From positions 62,001 to 126,000 of the forward strand of contig NZ_FRAA01000010.1 in the NCBI RefSeq assembly GCF_900142205.1: a stretch of 64,000 nt of DNA, written 5' to 3'. Shown piece by piece: positions 49,522 to 63,996 of this stretch. This DNA is from Reichenbachiella agariperforans (GTDB lineage: Bacteria > Bacteroidota > Bacteroidia > Cytophagales > Cyclobacteriaceae). The stretch's first letter is position 1. Each line of letters starts with the position of its first letter. The position numbers were made by a program, and so were the translations under genes. The notes under the pieces are model-generated. The model did not search any database. It was not told the DNA's origin and saw only the letters and a list, made by a program, of their open reading frames with translations.

Positions 49522-51327
49522 TTATGATTCTATATCTTCATTTATTTCTGTCTCTACTCCCCCTTTATCCTCTACATCGCTATGCAGTAGCGTAAAACGT
49601 TCCAAGCCACTCTTCAGCTCCTGCGAAACATCATTGAGCCAGTTTGATTTAAGAATATAGTTATTCATCCCTGCTGATAGTTCTGTTGCCGAACTGGATA
49701 TCTCCTCTGTTCCTGCCGCAGTTTGCTCTGCTATGACCACTACTTCCTCCGTGATGTTAACCACTTTATTTATGCTTTCGCTTTGTGAATTCGTAGCTCC
49801 CAGAATCATCTCAGAAAAACTCAAAGTCTCTGTTGAGGATAATTCAATCTCTTCGAAAACAGATGCAGCTTTGCCAGAAGCCTCCACACTGGACTTAACG
49901 ACTCCATTCATAGCCTCTATGACATCCGCCGCCTCTAATGTATCCCGCTGTACATCGGTCACTAGTTTTTCGATTTCACTCGCAGATTTTCTTGACCCCT
50001 CGGCTAACTTCCTAATCTCTTCCGCTACGACAGCAAAACCACGACCTGCATCACCAGCCTGAGCTGCTTCGATCGCAGCATTTAACGCAAGTAAATTCGT
50101 CTGAGAAGCAATGTCAGTAATCACGCCCAGCACACGAGAGATCTCTTTGGATCGCTCAGTCAACACACGCATCGAATCAGTCGTCTTTCCAGAATAAACA
50201 GATATCTCCGTCACACTATCTACGACGTACTTTGCAATCTTAGCCCCCTCTTCACTATTCTTTACACCTTTCTTAGCTGCTTCATTGATAGATTGAGATT
50301 TTGATCCCATTTCAGTAGAATTTTGCATCATAACCTCCACCAAAGTAGAAGACTCATCCACACGCGACACTTGTGTTTGCGCACCATGACTCATTTGCTC
50401 AATGGCACTGGCAATTTCACGTGTACTCGAATTCATTTCTTCTCCCGAACTCAGCATTTCATAAGATGAATCCCCTATATCTTGGGCATTTTTTGCAATC
50501 TTCACCAAAAACACGTTCAAATTGTCTAAAGCGACATTTAGGTTATTGGTCATTTGCAGAATTTGACCTTTCGCTTCCAGCCTATAGCGCTGAGTCAAAT
50601 CACCTTCCGCCATAGCATTCACTATTTTGTTGACTTCTAATACCGGTGTCACTATAGAAGACAAGAGTCCATTCACTGACTCACTTAATTCGCGCCACAC
50701 ACCTTGCTTCTCTCCCAAGACAATCTTGGCCTCTAAATTCCCTACTTCTCCTGCCTCTTTTACCACATATTTGGTTTCTGACACTACATTGGTAAGCTTT
50801 TCTCTTAACATCAATAGTGAATTACCCAAGCGGTCATTATCACTCAGTGCAGTAAACTTTACCGAAAGGTCTCCATCCCCCATGGCAGATGAAAAATTAG
50901 CAGCTTCTTTCAACTTCTCTAAAAAGAGATTAAGAGATTTAAAAAAGCCTCCTACTTCATCATTTCTACTAAGGTCACGGGAGTCTATCTCCAAATCTAT
51001 CTCTCCACTACGCAATTGGTCAAACACCCCATTAATACGAGACATTGGCCGCTCTATACTATTGCGTAAGACCCGAAAAGTTAAAAACACAGATAAAGTA
51101 CCTATAGGAACACTGTATGTAAGGTGAATTAACCCAAAAGACCCGGTAACATAGGCCTCTGTAACTACGACAAACATCGTAGCGATAATCCATATTCCCG
51201 CTTTGTAAATGAATGATTTTCTGAATATCCACCAATTGATTGTGAGCAAAACTGGGAGGACACCAAAATAGATAACACAAAGAAAATAAATTAGTTCTTC
51301 CATTTGTAAATAGCTTGATTGAAACAA
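49522..51327 (-). CDS. Methyl-accepting chemotaxis protein, no periplasmic sensor
   Basis: 601 residues. Residues ~10-90 contain membrane segments ([40 protein letters not shown]) with little periplasmic loop. A HAMP-like region (~95-150) is followed by a second HAMP-like stretch (~230-290). The MCP signalling domain covers ~310-570 with the hairpin tip [24 protein letters not shown] and [24 protein letters not shown]. It appears to sense a cytoplasmic or membrane signal. No che genes are adjacent. It is divergent from the PKS gene with a 687-bp gap between starts. Confidence 0.93.
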
Positions 51328-51364
51328 ATGTGACCAGTGGCATCACACTCAAAAATCAGTATAT

Positions 51365-51410
51365 ATATTAGAAATACAATAAATAATAAGCTTTATTGTA
51401 TTTCTAATAT
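51365..51410. promoter_or_regulatory. Perfect 19-bp inverted repeat upstream of the PKS and MCP
   Basis: ATATTAGAAATACAATAAA (51365-51383), an 8-nt loop, and its exact reverse complement (51392-51410). The stem is AT-rich with no T-run suited to simple termination, and it lies upstream of both divergent genes, 38 bp from the MCP start. A regulator operator or a 5'-UTR hairpin are possible. Confidence 0.6.
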
Positions 51411-51794
51411 CATGAATAAAATATTGAATAGTAGTAGCCACCTACATTATTTGTGTATTAAACACCTAATATACCGATAAATAGGGATTGGAACTCAGTG
51501 TCTTTATTACCAACTTTAATTTGAGATGAATTACGCTAGCCATAGGTTCTCCCTGTAATGGTTGCGTTATAACCACTTACTTAAAAGTTAATTATTGCAC
51601 ATAACTATAGGAGACAAAAAAAACAACACTTACTATACACGTAGCGTTATATGCAATATTTACAGTCACTCCTTTGATTAATTAAAAATAAACCCTAATT
51701 TGTACCAAACAACATCAACACAACAACCTAATGTGATTCATACCATTTAAGTACTACAATCAAAATTTAACTACGCAAATCCTAATTGAATGGA

Positions 51795-51823
51795 TTGAAG
51801 CGACCAAAGCCAATTTACTTTTG
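51795..51823 (+). promoter_or_regulatory. Candidate promoter for the PKS gene
   Basis: TTG at 51795-51797 and TACTTTTG at 51816-51823 match the Bacteroidota TTG-N17..23-TAnnTTTG layout with an 18-nt spacer. It would give a ~185-nt leader before ATG 52015. Consensus-like matches are common in AT-rich DNA, so this is tentative. Confidence 0.4.
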
Positions 51824-52014
51824 GTAAAAGACTAACCGATCACACCTCCACCTAATAGTGTTCGAACTCGCTCATTGGTCATGATACTGCCAATACTGAT
51901 TAGAAAGACATTCTACTATTGCTAACAGCTATAGTTAGTACCTACTGATAGAAGACTGACTATAGCACAGATTACTTTCATGAATTTATAACTCTTTATA
52001 TAAATCAATTAGCT

Positions 52015-55000
52015 ATGAAAAAAACAGATATCGCCATTGTAGGGATTGGGTGTCACGTACCAGGACAAATCCATGGTCCCGATAGTTTTTGGGAGCAACT
52101 AACCAACGGCATCAATGGAATCACCGAAGTGCCCAAAGACCGATGGAGTCACGAGGAATTCTATGACCCTAATCCAGACAAGGCAGGAAAAATCAAAACC
52201 AACAAAGGTGGTTTTATAGAAAGAATAGATCAGTTTGACAATGAATTTTTTAAGATATTCCCCAAAGAAGCTGAAAGAATAGACCCACAACAGCGTCTAC
52301 TACTCCAGACCACTTTCGAATCCATAGAGGACTCAGGAGACCGATTGGATCAATTCAAAGGCTCAAACACTGCGGTATTCATGAGTATGTTTACCAATGA
52401 CTACTGGGATATGCAAGTAGACCAGAAGAGCAGATATGAAATTAGCCCTCACGTACCGATGGGGTCCTCTCTCACTGCGATCGCCAACAGAGTATCCTAT
52501 TTCTATGATCTAAAAGGCCCCAGCGTTTCGATCGATACTGCCTGCTCCGGCTCTCTCGTATCTATACATTTAGCATGTCAGGCGATATGGGATCAAACTG
52601 CCGACTCAGCTGTAGCTGGAGGTGTCAATATCATCATCAATCCTGAATCAACCATCATGATGTCCAAGGGCAATTTCTTGAGTCCTGATGGTCACTGCAA
52701 GTCCTTTGATGAAAAAGCCAATGGATATGTCCGAAGTGAAGGAGTAGGAGTTGTATACCTCAAACCAGTAGACCAAGCCGTTGCAGACAACAATAAAATA
52801 TATGGCATCATCAAAAGTACTGCTTGCAACTCTGACGGGCATACTAGCGAAGGTTTCACTGTACCTAGCGAATCCTCGCAAACACGAATGCTTCGCAATG
52901 CATACGCTCTAGCAGGTGTAGACGTGGACAAACTCCAATATATAGAAGCGCACGGCACAGGCACCCCTGTAGGAGATCCTATCGAGACCAAGTCATTTGC
53001 CAATGTATTCGGTAAAAGAAGCACAGATCACCCACTGATGATTGGATCTGTCAAAACGAACATCGGTCACTTAGAAGGCGCGGCAGGAGTAGCTGGTTTG
53101 ATTAAGCTTGCACTTTCGATCAAAAACAAAAAAATACCTGGCAATCTCCATTTCAATAAAATCAATCCAAAAATAGATTTACAGAATTGGAAGCTTAAAG
53201 TCGTCAGTAAAAACACGGATTGGCCTGCACAACCCGATGGTGGCCCTCGCATAGGGGGAGTCAACTCATTTGGAGCAGGAGGCACTAATGCGCATTTGGT
53301 CCTTCAAGAATACATCCCATCGGATGATTCCCTAACTCAAACCAATATTGACACAGAAGAGAATCAATACCTCTTCCACACCAGTGCCGAAACGACCCTT
53401 TCATTGAACAACCTCCTACGTGAGTACAAAGACTACCTCTCAACGTCTAAAAACAGCCTGAGAGACATCTGCTACAACATAGGGAAACACCGGTCTGACC
53501 TCAAGCACCGCATCGCGATAGCGGGTAGTGACAAGGGTGATATCATCACCAAAATCGACGCGTACCTAGATGGAAATACACTCGCTGGTGTCGTAGTAGA
53601 TGAAGTAGACACTCCTGCCCAAAAAATCGCATTCGTGTTCACTGGACAAGGTCCACAGTGGTATGCAATGGGACAAGAACTTATCGCTAACGAACCCCTT
53701 TTCAAATCCGTCATTCAAAAGATCGAAACCTATTTTCTAGAAATAGCAGGTTGGTCTTTGTTAGAGGAAATGAACAAGGATGAAGAAAACTCCAGAGTCA
53801 ATGACACCCGAATCGCACAACCAGCCATCATGGCGATACAAATCGCACTGGTAGAACTTTGGAAAAAACATGGTGTCATACCAGAAGCAGTCGTAGGACA
53901 CTCGATTGGCGAAGTAGCGGCAGCTTACACTGCTGGCTCACTAACCTTAGAGCAAGCGGTACAAGTGATCTTTCATCGAAGTAGAGGCCAACACGCCGCT
54001 ACGGGCAAAGGGAAAATGCTAGCGGTCAGCCTCACGCAAAAAGAAGCCGAAGATGCCATTAAAAGTGTATCAGATGTAGTATCCATCGGAGCGGTCAACG
54101 GCCCAGCCATGACGGTGCTATCTGGAGATGAAGCACCACTGATCAAAATCGCCGAAGAGCTTGAGAAAAAGGATATTTTCAACAAGTTTCTAAGAGTAAC
54201 GGTACCGTTTCATTCCCATCACATGGAGCCGCTCAAAGACGAACTCATCAGTTCTCTCGCCTCACTGAAACCGAGTCTATCCAAAACAGCACTTTATTCA
54301 ACAGTGACAGGCCAACAAGAAGATGGCTCACACCTAGTCAGCAAATACTGGTATGACAATGTTCGAGAACCTGTCTACTTCTCCAATGCACTAAGTGCTA
54401 TGGTAGATGATGGATACGACCTATTTATCGAAATAGGTCCTCACCCCGCTCTGTCAGGCGGAGCTGAAGAACTATTTGAATCCAAAAACATTACCGCCTC
54501 TATCTTCCCTTCTATCAAAAGAAAGGAAAATGAGAAACTAAGGTTTCTTCAAACCTTAGGGTCACTATATACCAAAGGCTTTGCTCTCAATTGGGATATG
54601 ATATACCCTGAGTCAAAACAGGTTTTAGATCTCCCAAGATACCAATGGGACATGAAATCATTCTGGTATGAAAACCTAGAACACAAGGCCAGAAGAATAG
54701 GAAAAAAAACGCACCCTTTGTTGAATGGAAGTATACAGTCCGGAGCGCAAAAAGATCTTTTCAGCTTCGACTTGCTCCTAGACAGACGAGTAGATCCATA
54801 CATCGACGATCATCGGGTGGATGATGTCATTATCTTCCCCGCGACGGGTCATTTGGAAATGGCTACTGCTGCTGCCAAAGAAGCCTTTGGTAGTGACTTT
54901 GGATTCCTAGAGGACGTGAATTTCGAAAACGCACTATTCCTGCCTGAGGATGGACATTTTCAAGAAGTCAAAATTGAAATGTACTCTGATGAAGAAAAAT

Positions 55001-58000
55001 ACTGGATACTCAGTCGGGATCGAAATAACCCCGACGCTGAATGGATCAAGCACTCTAACGGAAAAATGAACACCCTCGGAGATACTTTTAACTCCATGCC
55101 TGTAGATTTAGAAGCGATCAAAGAGAGAGTAAATGACCGACTCCCGGTACAACCCATGTATTTGGAATTGAAAAAAAGTGGGTTATTCTACGGCCCTACG
55201 TTCAAAGCCATCAAAAACATGTGGGTGATCGAGGGGGAGATTCTGAGTAAAGTAGAACTGCACGAGTCACTCAGCTACGGGATCGAGGACTACTACCTAC
55301 ATCCTTCTATTTTGGACGCATGTCTCCACACGATTTTCGCAGCGAAGATGAGTGATGATGACGAAGAACGAGGTGTCTACTTACCAGTACATATAGACAG
55401 ATATAAACTCCACTCCAAGCCAACTACTCAAACGGTATTCAGCTATGTAAAAGTACATGAAAGCAGCTCCGAGTATCTCAAAGGTGATTTTTGGATCATT
55501 GATGAAGCAGGCGTTTTAATCGCTGAAATCCAAGGGTTAGATTGTAAATACATCGAAGGGTCAAGAAGCCAAGAAGGAGAAGTAGCTTATACGGGGTGCT
55601 ACGAGTACGAGTGGATTCCAGTACCAGATACCCAATACAAATCAGCCAACAACGAAGTGCTATTCGTAGGGGAAGCCGACTGTAACACAAAAGCACTCGA
55701 AGAGCAGTTAGTGCAAAATGGATCAAAAATCACCCATGCGCCGATCAAGGATTTTTCTAATCGAGAAGAACTAAAAGCGGTCATGGTGCAAATCAAGAAA
55801 GACCATCCTACGCTAAATAGAATAGTGGTCACACTACCTCTATCTGCTAAAGGTCAAGCACTGGAGACAGGCATGAAAGACATGAGTTGGAAAACGCTCA
55901 ATGTATTCAATGCCATCATAGAAGCAGAAATGCAATTATCTATATGGCTGCTCAACCAACAGGCAGATCTGGTAATCGCTTCAGATACAGAGATAGATTT
56001 ATCTCAAGCCCCTTCTTATGGGCTGGGTCGGGTCATGTTCAACGAATACCCATTGGTAACGGTCAAAATCGCTGATCTGTCGAGCTTAGAGAACGAAAAC
56101 GAAATAGCACATTTGGCAAAAATCATCTCCTCTACCTCCAACGGCGGTGAAGAGACTGATTATGCATTTCGTGATCAAGAAATCCTAGTCAAAAGGCTAC
56201 TCGCAATCGATAAGTCCAAAGCACAGGAAGACGCCTCTATCAATCTACTCGCTTCTGGATCATACTATCAGACGATCTTGAGAGAAAAAGGCATCCTCGA
56301 CTCTATAGGATTCAGACAAATAGCTCCGTTCCAATTGGGTGCTCATGATGTAGAAATCGATGTGAAAGCATCAGGGCTTAACTTTAAAGATGTCCTAAAT
56401 CTAAACGGTCTACTGACTGAGGAAAGTGTAGCAGGTGGGCTAGTCGGGGCACAGCTCGGGCTAGAGTGTAGTGGTGTAGTTGCCCGTGTAGGCAAGTCCG
56501 TAACTCACCTCAAAATTGGAGACCCTGTATTGGCTTTTGCGCCAAATACATTCGCAGGAAAAGTCATCGCACCAGATCACTGTGTAGTTCCTAAACCCGA
56601 ACACATTTCGTTCAAAGAGGCCGCCACGATCACTTTAGTATATTTGACAGCCTATCACTGTATGTTTAACCTCGGACAAATGGACGAAGGCGAACGTCTA
56701 CTGATCCACTCGGCAACAGGTGGTGTAGGTATGGCAGCAGTAGCGCTGGCTCAGCACTTCGGTATAGAGATCTATGCGACCGCTGGTACCGAAGAAAAAA
56801 GAACGCTACTTCGTGAGATGGGCGTAACACACATCTACAACAGTCGTAGCACGGCATTTCACGATGAGATCATGCAAGACACCCACGGAGAAGGAGTCGA
56901 TCTGGTACTGAACTCACTCAGTGGGAAAGCCATCATACAAAGTATCAAATGCCTACGTCCATTTGGACGATTTGTAGAGATCGGCAAAACGGACATCTAC
57001 AACGACATGAGTTTGCATCTCAAAAGATTTGGTGACAACCTCAGTTACTTCGCAGTGGATATCGATCGCCTCATGGGACAAAAGCCTAAAAAGGCGAGTA
57101 AACTATTCGGGGATGTCATTCGACTGTTCGAAGACAAAGTACTGAAGCCACATCCATACAAGCAGTTTTCGATCAACGAAATCGGTGAAGCCATTGACTT
57201 CATAGCCAAAGGCAAACACATCGGCAAAGTCATCGTCTCTATGGACGGAGAGCATGTCAATGCCTTGCCCGCCGAAACACTGACCTTATCCGCTGACCAC
57301 AGTTATTTGATCACTGGGGGTGCAAGTGGCTTTGGGCTAGAGTTGGCTAAATGGTTAGCCAACAAAGGCGCTAGGCATCTCGCGCTAGTGAGTCGAAGTG
57401 GACCAAAATCCGAATATGATCACAGCTGGATAGAAAAGCTCAGAGGAGATGGGATTAATATCATGATCGAAAATGTAAATCTATCATCTACCAACCAAGT
57501 AAATGATATGGTCTCAAGAGTGAACCAAACCGCACCATTAGCCGGTATCATACATGGTGCTGCAGTACTACAGGATTCGACGATTCAGCGAATGGATCAA
57601 GAGATATTCGACAGGGTATTTACCCCCAAAGCTATGGGAGCTTGGAACCTCCATCTCGCTACGACAAAAATGCAATTGGACTTCTTCTTGTCATTGTCGT
57701 CCATCTCTGCGGTATTTGGTCTACCGGGACAAGCCAACTATTCGTCTGCCAACAACTTCCTAGACAAATTAGTCAACTACCGAAAATCATTAGGCCTCCA
57801 CGCGCAAAGCGTCAACCTAGGAGTACTCGGTCAGTATGCAGGGATGTCCAAAGAAGGTGGAAACGTCCTCAACGTATTGGAGAATCAAGGCTGGCTACCA
57901 CTAACCATGAATCAGGTCACCAGCAAAATCGAACGGATATTGCTCGAAGGTGATATCGTACGAATGGCCGCCAATATCGATTGGTTGAGATTCAGAGAGT

Positions 58001-59178
58001 TTTTCAGTCACTTGAGAAATGATGCCAAATTTAAGGATCTCCTTTCAGACGACACGTTGAAAGTAGGTTCGGCCAAAGCCGGCAATGACAGCTTGCGTGA
58101 CAAGCTCATCCAAGCCAACGGAGAAGGAATCACACTGCTCACTGGGCACCTCAAAGAAGCACTTGCTAGAATACTCGGCACGACTCCTGACAAGCTGGAC
58201 GAAAGCAAATCTGTATCAGCAATCGGTCTAGACTCTCTCATGATGAATCAACTGAGAAACTGGATTCTACAAAAACTAGAGTTCAACTATCCGCTCATGA
58301 AGCTATCCAAAGGGCCTAGTATCGTAGAAATATCCGCTCATATTTTGGAGAGTATCAAAACAGCTACTAGCGAAGTAGAACAAGATGAGTCGGGTATCAC
58401 TTCAGAAAGCGATATTGAAGTGATCAACGAGTGGTTCGTGCACAAAAAGTCTGATGACAATGAGTCCCTTGGCAAAACCAAACTCTTCATGTTTCACTCC
58501 ATGGGAGCTGGCGCATCGATGTTCAACGACTTCCTCTACGACGCACCAGAAGGCACTGATGTCTACGCAGTACAACTACCAGGGCGCGAAAACAGAAAAG
58601 ACGAACCGATCTATTCTGACTTTAATCAGCTACTGTTAGATATAGAGACAGCTATGCTACCCCTGCTGGATGGACCGTTTGTAATCTACGGACACAGTTT
58701 TGGAGGGATAGTAGCCTTCGAGTTGACTCGTGCACTGCGCAACAAGCATGGCAAAGAGCCGCTGCACTTCTTTAGTTCAGCGACCATGGCACCACAGATG
58801 ACCACCACTTGGAAAAATCGTGATGTCCTAAAACAATCAGCCATCTCCGCTAACTCGGAGCAAAAACTGATAGGGCTGATGACCTACATCGATGATTTAG
58901 ACTATGTCAAAAAAATCCTTCCGATTTTGAGGCTTGACATGGCTCTACTCGTGGACTATGACTATGCCGATGATGCGAAGTTCAACTGTCCGATCACTGT
59001 TTTCTCAGCGATTGAAGATGAAGTCACCTTGCCTGAAGAGATGGCTCCTTGGGAGGAGCATACGGCATCTGAGTTTAGACAAGAGCTCGTACATGGTGAT
59101 CACTGGTTTGTGAGTCGAAACAAAGACTTCATTCGCCAGCAAATCACGCAGGACTTGAGTCTTTCATTGCAAGAGTAA
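52015..59178 (+). CDS. Single-module type I polyketide/fatty-acid synthase, KS-AT-DH-ER-KR-ACP-TE
   Basis: 2387 residues, a complete reducing synthase in animal-FAS domain order. KS (~1-430): Cys177 (DTACSGSL), His313 (EAHGTGTP), His352 (KTNIGHLEG). AT (~538-850): Ser630 (GHSIGE), His733 in VPFHSHHM, the malonyl-type position rather than the methylmalonyl YASH. DH (~890-1185): His933 in DDHRVDD, Asp1101/His1105. A structural region ~1190-1410. ER (~1415-1745): HSATGGVGMAA (1565-1575). KR (~1760-1985): TGGASGFG, Tyr1909 in QANYSSANNF; B-type-like LQD. ACP (~2030-2115): Ser2074. TE (~2155-2385): Ser2228 in GHSFGG, His2363, type-II-thioesterase-like. No methyltransferase or loading module. Iterative chain growth is inferred; product unknown. 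Confidence 0.95.
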   Translation: MKKTDIAIVGIGCHVPGQIHGPDSFWEQLTNGINGITEVPKDRWSHEEFYDPNPDKAGKIKTNKGGFIERIDQFDNEFFKIFPKEAERIDPQQRLLLQTTFESIEDSGDRLDQFKGSNTAVFMSMFTNDYWDMQVDQKSRYEISPHVPMGSSLTAIANRVSYFYDLKGPSVSIDTACSGSLVSIHLACQAIWDQTADSAVAGGVNIIINPESTIMMSKGNFLSPDGHCKSFDEKANGYVRSEGVGVVYLKPVDQAVADNNKIYGIIKSTACNSDGHTSEGFTVPSESSQTRMLRNAYALAGVDVDKLQYIEAHGTGTPVGDPIETKSFANVFGKRSTDHPLMIGSVKTNIGHLEGAAGVAGLIKLALSIKNKKIPGNLHFNKINPKIDLQNWKLKVVSKNTDWPAQPDGGPRIGGVNSFGAGGTNAHLVLQEYIPSDDSLTQTNIDTEENQYLFHTSAETTLSLNNLLREYKDYLSTSKNSLRDICYNIGKHRSDLKHRIAIAGSDKGDIITKIDAYLDGNTLAGVVVDEVDTPAQKIAFVFTGQGPQWYAMGQELIANEPLFKSVIQKIETYFLEIAGWSLLEEMNKDEENSRVNDTRIAQPAIMAIQIALVELWKKHGVIPEAVVGHSIGEVAAAYTAGSLTLEQAVQVIFHRSRGQHAATGKGKMLAVSLTQKEAEDAIKSVSDVVSIGAVNGPAMTVLSGDEAPLIKIAEELEKKDIFNKFLRVTVPFHSHHMEPLKDELISSLASLKPSLSKTALYSTVTGQQEDGSHLVSKYWYDNVREPVYFSNALSAMVDDGYDLFIEIGPHPALSGGAEELFESKNITASIFPSIKRKENEKLRFLQTLGSLYTKGFALNWDMIYPESKQVLDLPRYQWDMKSFWYENLEHKARRIGKKTHPLLNGSIQSGAQKDLFSFDLLLDRRVDPYIDDHRVDDVIIFPATGHLEMATAAAKEAFGSDFGFLEDVNFENALFLPEDGHFQEVKIEMYSDEEKYWILSRDRNNPDAEWIKHSNGKMNTLGDTFNSMPVDLEAIKERVNDRLPVQPMYLELKKSGLFYGPTFKAIKNMWVIEGEILSKVELHESLSYGIEDYYLHPSILDACLHTIFAAKMSDDDEERGVYLPVHIDRYKLHSKPTTQTVFSYVKVHESSSEYLKGDFWIIDEAGVLIAEIQGLDCKYIEGSRSQEGEVAYTGCYEYEWIPVPDTQYKSANNEVLFVGEADCNTKALEEQLVQNGSKITHAPIKDFSNREELKAVMVQIKKDHPTLNRIVVTLPLSAKGQALETGMKDMSWKTLNVFNAIIEAEMQLSIWLLNQQADLVIASDTEIDLSQAPSYGLGRVMFNEYPLVTVKIADLSSLENENEIAHLAKIISSTSNGGEETDYAFRDQEILVKRLLAIDKSKAQEDASINLLASGSYYQTILREKGILDSIGFRQIAPFQLGAHDVEIDVKASGLNFKDVLNLNGLLTEESVAGGLVGAQLGLECSGVVARVGKSVTHLKIGDPVLAFAPNTFAGKVIAPDHCVVPKPEHISFKEAATITLVYLTAYHCMFNLGQMDEGERLLIHSATGGVGMAAVALAQHFGIEIYATAGTEEKRTLLREMGVTHIYNSRSTAFHDEIMQDTHGEGVDLVLNSLSGKAIIQSIKCLRPFGRFVEIGKTDIYNDMSLHLKRFGDNLSYFAVDIDRLMGQKPKKASKLFGDVIRLFEDKVLKPHPYKQFSINEIGEAIDFIAKGKHIGKVIVSMDGEHVNALPAETLTLSADHSYLITGGASGFGLELAKWLANKGARHLALVSRSGPKSEYDHSWIEKLRGDGINIMIENVNLSSTNQVNDMVSRVNQTAPLAGIIHGAAVLQDSTIQRMDQEIFDRVFTPKAMGAWNLHLATTKMQLDFFLSLSSISAVFGLPGQANYSSANNFLDKLVNYRKSLGLHAQSVNLGVLGQYAGMSKEGGNVLNVLENQGWLPLTMNQVTSKIERILLEGDIVRMAANIDWLRFREFFSHLRNDAKFKDLLSDDTLKVGSAKAGNDSLRDKLIQANGEGITLLTGHLKEALARILGTTPDKLDESKSVSAIGLDSLMMNQLRNWILQKLEFNYPLMKLSKGPSIVEISAHILESIKTATSEVEQDESGITSESDIEVINEWFVHKKSDDNESLGKTKLFMFHSMGAGASMFNDFLYDAPEGTDVYAVQLPGRENRKDEPIYSDFNQLLLDIETAMLPLLDGPFVIYGHSFGGIVAFELTRALRNKHGKEPLHFFSSATMAPQMTTTWKNRDVLKQSAISANSEQKLIGLMTYIDDLDYVKKILPILRLDMALLVDYDYADDAKFNCPITVFSAIEDEVTLPEEMAPWEEHTASEFRQELVHGDHWFVSRNKDFIRQQITQDLSLSLQE

Positions 59179-59186
59179 CAAGAAGA

Positions 59187-59219
59187 AGCCTGCACATTTC
59201 ATCCGAAACCGTGCAGGCT
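59187..59219 (+). terminator. First of three stem-loops after the PKS
   Basis: AGCCTGCAC (59187-59195) pairs perfectly with GTGCAGGCT (59211-59219); 15-nt loop. No strong T-run follows, so it may protect the mRNA 3' end or weaken read-through rather than terminate alone. Confidence 0.6.
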
Positions 59220-59231
59220 ATACTGTAAACC

Positions 59232-59268
59232 ACTTCCTTCCCCCTATGACAGGAGAGAAGGAAGTTTT
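59232..59268 (+). terminator. Second of three stem-loops after the PKS
   Basis: ACTTCCTTC (59232-59240) pairs with GAAGGAAGT (59257-59265), followed by TTT. A moderate intrinsic terminator. Confidence 0.55.
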
Positions 59269-59288
59269 CAATCACATTAATCTGTCCT

Positions 59289-59328
59289 AGGGCTCTTTCT
59301 AATAACACATTAGAACAGAGCCCTTTTT
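59289..59328 (+). terminator. Third stem-loop, 16 bp before the PPTase start
   Basis: AGGGCTCT (59289-59296) pairs with AGAGCCCT (59317-59324), extended by TTCTAAT/ATTAGAA inside with one bulge, and followed by TTTT. The best terminator of the three. It ends just before the PPTase start, which implies an attenuating arrangement or a promoter within this segment. Confidence 0.7.
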
Positions 59329-59344
59329 ACCAGCTATCTTTTTC

Positions 59345-60007
59345 ATGATCAACCTCTCTCTTCCAGAAGGTGTACATTCCTCATTTTCTGATTTATCACA
59401 TACAATAGATGTACTATTCGAATCAGAAAAACATATTACTCAAGACTATGACCCCAAAAGACTTCAGGAATTTTGTAGCGGTAGGTATTGTGCACATCAG
59501 TGTCTAGACCGTTTAGACACACGAAAACCAATACTAAAAACAAAAGAGGGAGTTCCTATCTGGCCCAAAGCAGTCACTGGCTCTATCAGTCACTCAACAA
59601 AGCTATCAGGTGCCATAGCGTCCTCTACCAACACCATAGAAGGTATTGGCCTAGACATAGAAACCATAGGACGTATCTCCCCAGACATGTGGGCAATACT
59701 TTATACCAATAATGAAATTGATTTACTCAAGCGTACAGCTATGCCCGAAGTTGATTTTTTAAGCACGCTAATATTCTCTATGAAAGAAGCATTCTACAAA
59801 ATGCAATTTCCAATCAGCGGACTCTTCATGGATTTTCAAGATTGCGAGATAACACTCCTAAACGAAAAATGTCATATCCAACCTCTCGTCAGTTTGTGTT
59901 CTCCACTCACTGACCCAGCTCAATATGACATTGGATACCTTAGACTGGAAACAGAGGTAATAACCTACGTACTGCTCCGCCCACTCGAAGAAATTAGGAT
60001 CTCATAA
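59345..60007 (+). CDS. 4'-phosphopantetheinyl transferase (EntD/Sfp type)
   Basis: 220 residues from ATG 59345. The enzyme attaches phosphopantetheine from CoA to the ACP serine. Family motifs: KRLQEFCSGRYCAHQCLDRL (N-terminal), GSISHSTKLSGAIAS, GIGLDIETIGRI (metal-binding Asp/Glu), and FSMKEAFYKMQFPISG (the KEA-x-x-K motif). The pattern is closer to EntD/PcpS than to AcpS. It lies 166 bp after the PKS, the obvious candidate to activate Ser2074, but three stem-loops separate the two, so expression may be tuned separately. Confidence 0.92.
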   Translation: MINLSLPEGVHSSFSDLSHTIDVLFESEKHITQDYDPKRLQEFCSGRYCAHQCLDRLDTRKPILKTKEGVPIWPKAVTGSISHSTKLSGAIASSTNTIEGIGLDIETIGRISPDMWAILYTNNEIDLLKRTAMPEVDFLSTLIFSMKEAFYKMQFPISGLFMDFQDCEITLLNEKCHIQPLVSLCSPLTDPAQYDIGYLRLETEVITYVLLRPLEEIRIS

Positions 60008-63755: not shown

Positions 63756-63832
63756 ACCTCGGCCAGAAGAAAATGAGGACAGCCGACAAGAAAAGGACAG
63801 CCTCTCGCCAAAAAACGTATGATAAAACTGAT

Positions 63833-63996
63833 GCGACGAGCCGCTGCAACTTGCAGGAAGCTTTCGCACCCATGCGATGAGCCGCTGCAACCTGCAGGAA
63901 GCCGTCGCACCCATGCGATGAGTCACTGCAACCTGCGGGAAGCCATCGCGCCCATGCGATGAGTCCCAGCAATCTGCGGGAAGCTTTCGCACCGAT
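63833..63996. repeat. 41-bp tandem repeat, four units at the window end
   Basis: Units start at 63833, 63874, 63915 and 63956; each begins GCGA(T/C)GAG and ends (C/G)AT. The shared core reads (C/A)TGCAA(C/T)(C/T)TGC(A/G)GGAAGC. The 5' GCGA and internal TCGC and the TGCA..TGCAGG segment can form small stems. Units differ by a few bases and have no spacers. 41 is not a multiple of three, so this is not a coding repeat. The array may continue beyond the window. Confidence 0.85.

Follow-up and report, generated by a model that had tools for sequence, protein, structure and literature searches.

The stretch of DNA analysed here (64,000 nucleotides of contig NZ_FRAA01000010.1 of Reichenbachiella agariperforans, referred to as the window) contains on its forward strand, at positions 52015-59178, the gene for a type I reducing polyketide synthase (PKS) of 2387 amino acids. 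The gene is a single uninterrupted frame with an ATG start and no internal stops. A Pfam search, which had been proposed when the locus was read from its letters alone (the sequence-only reading), recovers all seven domain types in the order KS-AT-DH-ER-KR-ACP-TE, with every match above its curated cut-off. Together with the alignment of motifs, this bears out the earlier description of one 2387-residue chain with all active sites intact, that is, a single-chain reducing type I synthase provided with its own thioesterase. Since a single chain carries KS, AT and ACP, and their active sites are intact, the protein corresponds to a type I (cis-AT) PKS.

The KS domain (residues 4-430; 52024-53304), defined by Pfam, residue alignment and its place in the KS tree described below, carries C177, H313 and H352; its Pfam matches cover residues 4-255 (281.7 bits) and 263-380 (132.7 bits) and are followed by a KS extension at 384-499. 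The AT domain (540-853; 53632-54573; 257.6 bits) shows, by Pfam and alignment, a GHSIG sequence (GHS630) and the malonyl-type motif VPFHSHHM. Thus, it reads PFHS where the aligned DEBS AT has YASH, and we follow the usual assumption that motifs of the PFHS type are malonyl-specific, which agrees with the malonyl substrate predicted by the sequence-only reading. The DH domain (900-1185; 54712-55569), supported by Pfam matches at 900-993 and 1029-1185 and by residue alignment, contains H933 and D1101. The canonical motif of these domains is HxxxGxxxxP, and the synthase has a D in the place of its G. The ER domain (1442-1741; 56338-57237), identified by Pfam matches at 1442-1506, 1570-1669 and 1602-1741, by motif alignment and by identities to its relatives, keeps an intact NADPH motif, HSATGGVG. 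It is followed by the KR domain (1763-1938; 57301-57828; 201.9 bits by Pfam, with Lys1872, Ser1896, Tyr1909 and Asn1913 located by residue alignment) and by a single ACP (2046-2110; 58150-58344), with one PP-binding match of 33.9 bits and an LDS2074 motif whose S2074 is confirmed by residue alignment. The C-terminal thioesterase (2156-2368; 58480-59118; 97.7 bits by Pfam) resembles OLAH and RifR in a search against sequences of solved structures and contains GHS2228, Asp2335 and His2363. These motifs are presumed here to have the catalytic meaning assigned to them in KS, AT, DH, ER, KR, ACP and TE domains.

The gene located 166 bp downstream, at 59345-60007 on the same strand, was not mentioned in the sequence-only reading. 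By Pfam and NCBIfam it encodes a Sfp/PptT-like 4'-phosphopantetheinyl transferase (PPTase) of 220 amino acids, one of three matches to the ACPS family in the genome. Fold prediction places three hairpins in the gap (59179-59344, read on the forward strand), the last of them followed by a run of T, as in a terminator; the fold has a z value of -7.87 and none of 200 shuffles was as good. A simple hairpin scan does not list this terminator-like hairpin, whose stem has a bulge. Taking its position into account, synthase and PPTase may be separately transcribed in this genome.

On the other side of the synthase, and diverging from it, a gene also absent from the earlier reading encodes a chemoreceptor of the MCP type (49522-51327, reverse strand), in which Pfam recognises HAMP_2 and MCPsignal behind a membrane N-terminus, and whose start is probably an ATG lying 8 codons inside the listed TTG. 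The divergent intergenic region measures 687 bp (51328-52014), and the counts of promoter motifs in it are at chance level. In its N-terminal part, 192 residues of this receptor are 66% identical to those of an MCP that lies, in a different gene order, behind the PPTase of Marinoscillum. When it was compared with seven other MCPs of its own genome, five were 27-34% identical over 108-198 residues, one was 44% identical over 25 residues and one gave no match. The genome has 12 MCP and six CheW matches, so a pathway that the receptor could feed exists. Assuming 1.1 kb per gene, the chance of an MCP being among the two nearest genes is about 0.5%. In one of the two congeners examined, the MCP beside the synthase (L033; G124:C1:2169147-2170755) is split into two frames, covering residues 9-135 and 128-544, which may reflect either a decayed gene or a sequencing error.

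The sequence-only reading had set the synthase apart from the type II fatty-acid genes and had emphasised that its domain order is that of animal fatty acid synthase (KS-MAT-DH-ER-KR-ACP-TE). The separation is confirmed, fabH, accB and accC being present in the window apart from the synthase gene. The shared order is likewise real, and it is here that the likeness ends. Among solved structures, the whole protein scores best with MAS (979 bits, over residues 3-1955), followed by Pks16 (867) and mammalian FAS (641), while the KS alone gives 424 bits with CurL, 373 with Pks13, 364 with MAS, 342 with LovB and 266-269 with mammalian FAS. The TE finds its nearest solved relatives in OLAH (89 bits) and RifR (82 bits), both free-standing thioesterases, and FASN thioesterase does not appear among the 11 sequences of solved structures matching this TE at 1e-5. 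As whole-protein, KS and TE scores all favour PKSs, OLAH or RifR, the protein is best described as a PKS with animal-FAS domain order, for which these scores give no support to a kinship by descent with FAS. Kinship with animal FAS was thus discarded on the KS and TE scores against solved structures, FASN not being among the rows of the KS tree. A further difference from FASN is that some members of the bacterial family considered below have a degenerate ER or none at all.

Other known systems offer partial parallels. MAS is an iterative, single-module KS-AT-DH-ER-KR-ACP enzyme that is not known to carry a C-terminal TE and uses methylmalonyl. MAS and the MAS-like mycobacterial PKSs give the best whole-protein match, whereas the synthase carries a C-terminal TE and a malonyl-type AT motif: it has PFHS rather than a methylmalonyl-type AT sequence such as the YASH of DEBS, and its 1172.3 bits with the Pks2 model of NCBIfam lie below the cut-off of 2400. 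It also stays below the NCBIfam cut-offs for Pks13, PKS_plus_SDR and PfaA; in this last case, corresponding to the PUFA synthases, it reaches 375.1 bits against 1010.1 and has one ACP instead of a tandem. Fungal highly reducing PKSs (the LovB type) are also reducing single modules and usually have no TE, while the window synthase has one and, by Pfam, no methyltransferase. A bacterial type I PKS with which the synthase can be compared by description is PfSgaA of Pseudomonas fluorescens, which is presented as an iterative enzyme building a lipid chain and acting with the PLP enzyme PfSgaB, which forms 3-keto-sphinganine (PMC12134224). The window synthase differs from PfSgaA, as described there, in its fused TE and in having no PLP-enzyme gene among the near neighbours scanned.

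The synthase is not a chance find. In a sample of 148 genomes of its family, 28 match it at 1e-200, and in 16, the source genome included, the match extends to the TE (G000, G068, G124, G029, G010, G113, G049, G147, G012, G090, G025, G134, G125, G016, G002 and G052); 12 of the 15 other carriers were aligned and are 41-71% identical to it. At the order level, 13 of 291 genomes match at 1e-250, and a sample of the phylum yields 3 matches in 395, the two besides the source genome being 35-36% identical, with matches that end before the TE. Genome contigs were also scanned with two peptide patterns, which gave 276 relatives, the best 80 of which were retained. Among these best 80, by domain order and KS score, the family is present in Cytophagales, Saccharicrinis, Yersiniaceae (Serratia grimesii, Serratia sp. 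PL17, Yersinia alsatica, Y. pekkanenii and Fukatsuia), Planctomycetes and Acidobacteria, and in bins labelled Rickettsiales and Bdellovibrionaceae. Of the named carriers found, the closest to the window is Marinoscillum pacificum. A relative is encoded in none of 48 pattern stretches of viral contigs, and a viral origin was discarded.

The KS tree contains 82 rows, 49 from the family (KS score of at least 480 bits, duplicates removed) and 33 references, without FASN, MAS or fungal highly reducing PKS rows. A branch supported at 100/99 sets all 49 bacterial family rows apart, and none of the 33 references lies among them. As judged from this tree, the synthase belongs to a discrete bacterial family. 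No grouping with a modular PKS of known product is seen in the tree, which is a weak test, as the reference rows carry no assigned products. The claim that no characterised Bacteroidota system has this architecture agrees with the open-licence papers searched, where neither such a system nor a description of the family was found; subscription journals may hold one. With 49 rows in its KS clade, the synthase is not an isolated case.

Within the tree, one clade (100/99) unites the window with both congeners, with Marinoscillum pacificum and with a Rickettsiales-binned contig. The Yersiniaceae rows (100/100) are sister to it, and their nesting in a mostly Bacteroidota part of the tree suggests a transfer of the synthase from Bacteroidota into Yersiniaceae. 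The binned contig (L084, isolate NP5) encodes a synthase 92.5% identical to that of M. pacificum, with a similar MCP adjoining, and is probably a misbinned Cytophagales. The window synthase is 76% identical to that of Marinoscillum and 71% to those of the two congeners (L032, L033 and L052 were compared), while its flanking genes, unlike the synthase itself, match the congeners; either replacement of the cassette or the way in which the genus is delimited could lie behind this. In Aureibacter tunicatorum (L158) and Persicobacter psychrovividus (L159) the synthase gene lies on a megaplasmid, 615 kb and 1069 kb in size, respectively. In L079 (7911-15176) the synthase frame ends before a complete TE, and the remainder of a thioesterase domain is encoded by a 188-aa frame that follows.

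A neighbouring KS clade, from Crocinitomix, a spirochaete and deltaproteobacteria, has an extra stretch of about 395 residues between DH and ER, in which a methyltransferase-like motif, LEIGAGTGG, was recognised by eye and not by Pfam; in this the clade is reminiscent of fungal highly reducing PKSs. TE-terminated bacterial PKSs of about 2800 amino acids form a separate clade (L119, L085, L122, L099, L103, L110, L114 and L092); its five aligned members (L119, L085, L114, L092 and L099) have a methyltransferase-like stretch between DH and ER, and a gene resembling acyl-CoA ligases (L085, L119) or GH3 proteins (L099, L114) was seen by eye near some of them.

Conservation was analysed in 43 sequences, the window and 42 near-complete loci (several of them near-duplicates), broken or short ones being excluded. 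The catalytic residues of KS, AT, DH, KR and ACP are invariant in all 43, as is the TE serine; the TE aspartate and histidine are present in 42 of 43, the exception being L059, truncated by the end of its contig. At position 732, which is the discriminating one in the AT, 32 sequences have F and 11 have Y. The ER behaves differently. Its NADPH motif (GGxG type), judged by eye from aligned strings, is kept in 29 of 43 and degenerate in 12, and the domain is absent in the other two, which requires at least 7 changes of state on the KS tree. Both congeners (G068 and G124) have degenerate motifs, TDEVG and TDDVG for TGGVG, and their ER is 52-61% identical to that of the window, against 82% in Marinoscillum. 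Most members with a degenerate motif also show drifted ER sequence: in L064, L068 and L071 the ER is 33-36% identical to the window and the KS 58-61%, whereas L088 has a degenerate motif without so clear a drift (ER 46%, KS 54%, KR 42%). DH identity is low too in several of these rows. Between window and Marinoscillum, ER (82%) and KS (81%) are equally conserved. In the window species the sequences thus point to constraint on the ER, which other members have abandoned several times, and the steps of condensation, ketoreduction, dehydration and release are retained.

This has consequences for the product. With the ER degenerate in 12 and absent in 2 of 43 members, a saturated acid is unlikely to be common to the family, and the 14 cases count against a saturated C16/C18 acid as its general product; an unsaturated acid, further saturated in some species, would suit the family better. 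As a shared role, the special lipid with a reduced acid that was proposed earlier is therefore doubtful. It may yet hold for this species, since the window ER is intact.

The surroundings of the synthase were surveyed in 41 family loci, taking the first gene of at least 180 aa on each side and setting PPTases aside. A signalling gene, encoding an MCP, a multi-TM GAF sensor, a histidine kinase or a Ser/Thr kinase, is a near neighbour in 29. The first downstream gene contains GAF in 16 of 41 and HisKA in 8, and the first upstream gene MCPsignal in 3 and GAF in 2. In a background of 86 genes located four or five places away, HATPase_c is found in 2 and GAF in at most 2, a bound given by its absence from the 25 commonest families there. 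Fisher tests, ignoring kinship, give p = 1.2e-7 for GAF and p = 0.002 for histidine kinases (0.011 if four far kinases are counted); as the loci are not independent, these values serve only as guides. Signalling genes thus adjoin the synthase more often than the background, with the same reservation about independence, and they do not do so throughout the family: 12 of 41 loci have none as first neighbour, namely 3 of 4 in Yersiniaceae, 4 of 4 in Acidobacteria, and those of Splendidivirga, Saccharicrinis, two Persicobacter and Flammeovirga. No sensor or kinase domain was found in the upstream genes of the loci without a signalling neighbour, and two Serratia loci have a LacI-type regulator upstream.

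In Bacteroidota, 4 of 24 loci have an MCP (L051, which is the window, L032, L033 and L052), 15 a GAF sensor and 5 no signalling neighbour. Eleven of the GAF sensors are encoded first downstream, all on the strand of the synthase, and two upstream (L158, L088); another two follow the PPTase, preceded by one or two further frames (L079, L100). Pfam identified GAF in L053, L071 and L158, the other GAF sensors being 31-51% identical to L071 over at least 449 residues, and L066, L082, L083 and L101 are 61-67% identical to L062, also read by Pfam. Both loci from bins labelled Rickettsiales have a hybrid histidine kinase directly behind the PPTase. All seven loci of Planctomycetes have a Ser/Thr kinase, on the synthase strand in 6, and in 5 GAF and histidine kinase parts accompany it; the second kinase of L106 is truncated where the stretch ends. 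In Yersiniaceae, a 228-aa histidine kinase piece lies on the opposite strand beside the synthase of Fukatsuia (1 of 4), and in Acidobacteria 0 of 4 loci have a signalling neighbour. A PPTase gene is found near the synthase in 24 of 24 Bacteroidota, 2 of 2 Rickettsiales bins and 3 of 4 Acidobacteria; none was found beside it in any of the four loci of Yersiniaceae, the seven of Planctomycetes or the remaining acidobacterial locus.

GAF sensors are a large family, with 3-30 matches at 1e-20 per genome in the 20 genomes, out of 23, that have any. The closest sensor type (above 390 bits, a limit set after viewing the list) occurs in 7 of 148 genomes, 6 of which carry the synthase, against 16 carriers in the whole sample; without the query genome, 5 of 6 carry it (p = 3e-5, kinship ignored). 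At 1e-20, the three genomes of the window's genus have no match to a GAF sensor, and the MCP stands in its place. A single clade of receptors linked to the synthase was considered and rejected, since 6 changes are required on the tree of the GAF sensors to account for those that adjoin the synthase, and 58 of 500 shuffles are as low; 10 adjacent and 3 other rows do share one clade (98/96). As the adjacent receptors are not one clade, they have probably been exchanged over time. A simple hydropathy count gives 2-3 membrane segments in two MCPs and 5-6 in twelve GAF sensors, and Pfam detects no extracellular domain in the receptors scanned, which would suit a lipophilic ligand.

From these data a mechanism can be proposed. 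The neighbouring PPTase would arm the single ACP, as its adjacency indicates; the AT, according to its motif, would load malonyl; KS, KR and DH would extend the chain over several rounds, with the ER, presumably active in this species, saturating some or all double bonds; and the fused TE would release a linear free acid. The steps from arming to release are those we regard as highly probable. The source genome, 98.8% complete, has eight KS matches, and only that of the synthase is in a long frame, the others being in frames of 378-426 aa, so the single module is likely to be reused iteratively; against this, a single module could serve once. Our main reading, to which we give a probability of roughly 70%, is thus that of a monomodular, iterative, malonyl-using and self-releasing PKS that would produce a linear free acid, reduced to a greater or lesser degree, and work with the adjacent sensor. 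The acid would then be the ligand of the neighbouring receptor, or be made under its control, rather than a bulk membrane lipid. Since family genes often adjoin a membrane sensor or a signalling kinase, the product may be a signal and not an ordinary fat. That the acid is itself the ligand is proposed only tentatively. An equally speculative extension sees synthase, PPTase and membrane receptor or kinase as a self-contained polyketide signalling cassette, exchanged between phyla, in which the receptor type (MCP, multi-TM GAF protein, hybrid histidine kinase or Ser/Thr-histidine kinase) would have been swapped and the synthase kept, the ER being repeatedly switched off to alter the message. Against the main reading stand the 12 of 41 loci without a signalling neighbour, the groups in which no PPTase gene was found beside the synthase, the dispersed ancestry of the GAF sensors and the hairpin before the PPTase.

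Other explanations have to be weighed against this one. The synthase could be an orphan extension module, with the rest of its assembly line encoded elsewhere, and in architecture it matches standard terminal reducing modules that end in a TE; as no other KS match of the nearly complete genome lies in a frame longer than 426 aa, and a stand-alone protein with the same domain order occurs in many loci of several phyla, this is very improbable and was rejected. The view of the sequence-only reading, in which a FAS-like synthase makes the saturated acid of a specialised lipid of the membrane or envelope, draws on the full reducing loop with an ER as conserved as the KS with respect to Marinoscillum, on the malonyl-type AT and on a TE closest to OLAH, which is named a medium-chain fatty acid synthase thioesterase. 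We consider it unlikely, given the decay of the ER in the family, including both congeners, the KS nearer to PKSs than to FAS, and the near neighbours scanned in the window, among which there is no acyl-CoA ligase, acyltransferase or glycolipid gene.

A secondary metabolite, such as a protective polyene, an antibiotic or a surfactant acid, is a more serious contender, and we consider it quite possible while not preferring it. The sensor would here control the output of the synthase and perceive the environment instead of the product, which fits sensor types that vary while the synthase is conserved, a scattered distribution with apparent transfer between phyla, and copies on megaplasmids. Exporter-like genes point in the same direction, with MacB/FtsX (3 of 41), MatE (2 of 41) or an HlyD-type protein (L074) encoded by the first upstream gene and an MFS protein by the first downstream gene in L061, but no single exporter family is linked to the synthase beyond a few loci, and the MCP and GAF sensors scanned are without a DNA-binding domain. 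If the link with the sensor is functional, the locus would exemplify a class of signals that bacteria make with a single reducing PKS, and this is open to testing because synthase, activator and receptor sit together. Without that link, the third of aligned members in which the ER is degenerate or absent would still constitute a natural experiment on reductive programming, in a one-protein, TE-terminated reducing PKS that spans Cytophagales, Planctomycetes, Acidobacteria and Yersiniaceae and could provide a small, self-releasing chassis for acids of varied saturation.

Two further observations concern other parts of the genome. Three KS-type matches lie within 6 kb at G000:C15:115787-121555, possibly an aryl-polyene or flexirubin cluster. 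Near the end of the window, at 63831-63994, there is a tandem 41-bp repeat, with three overlapping 82-nt copies that are spaced by 41 bp and 80-100% alike.
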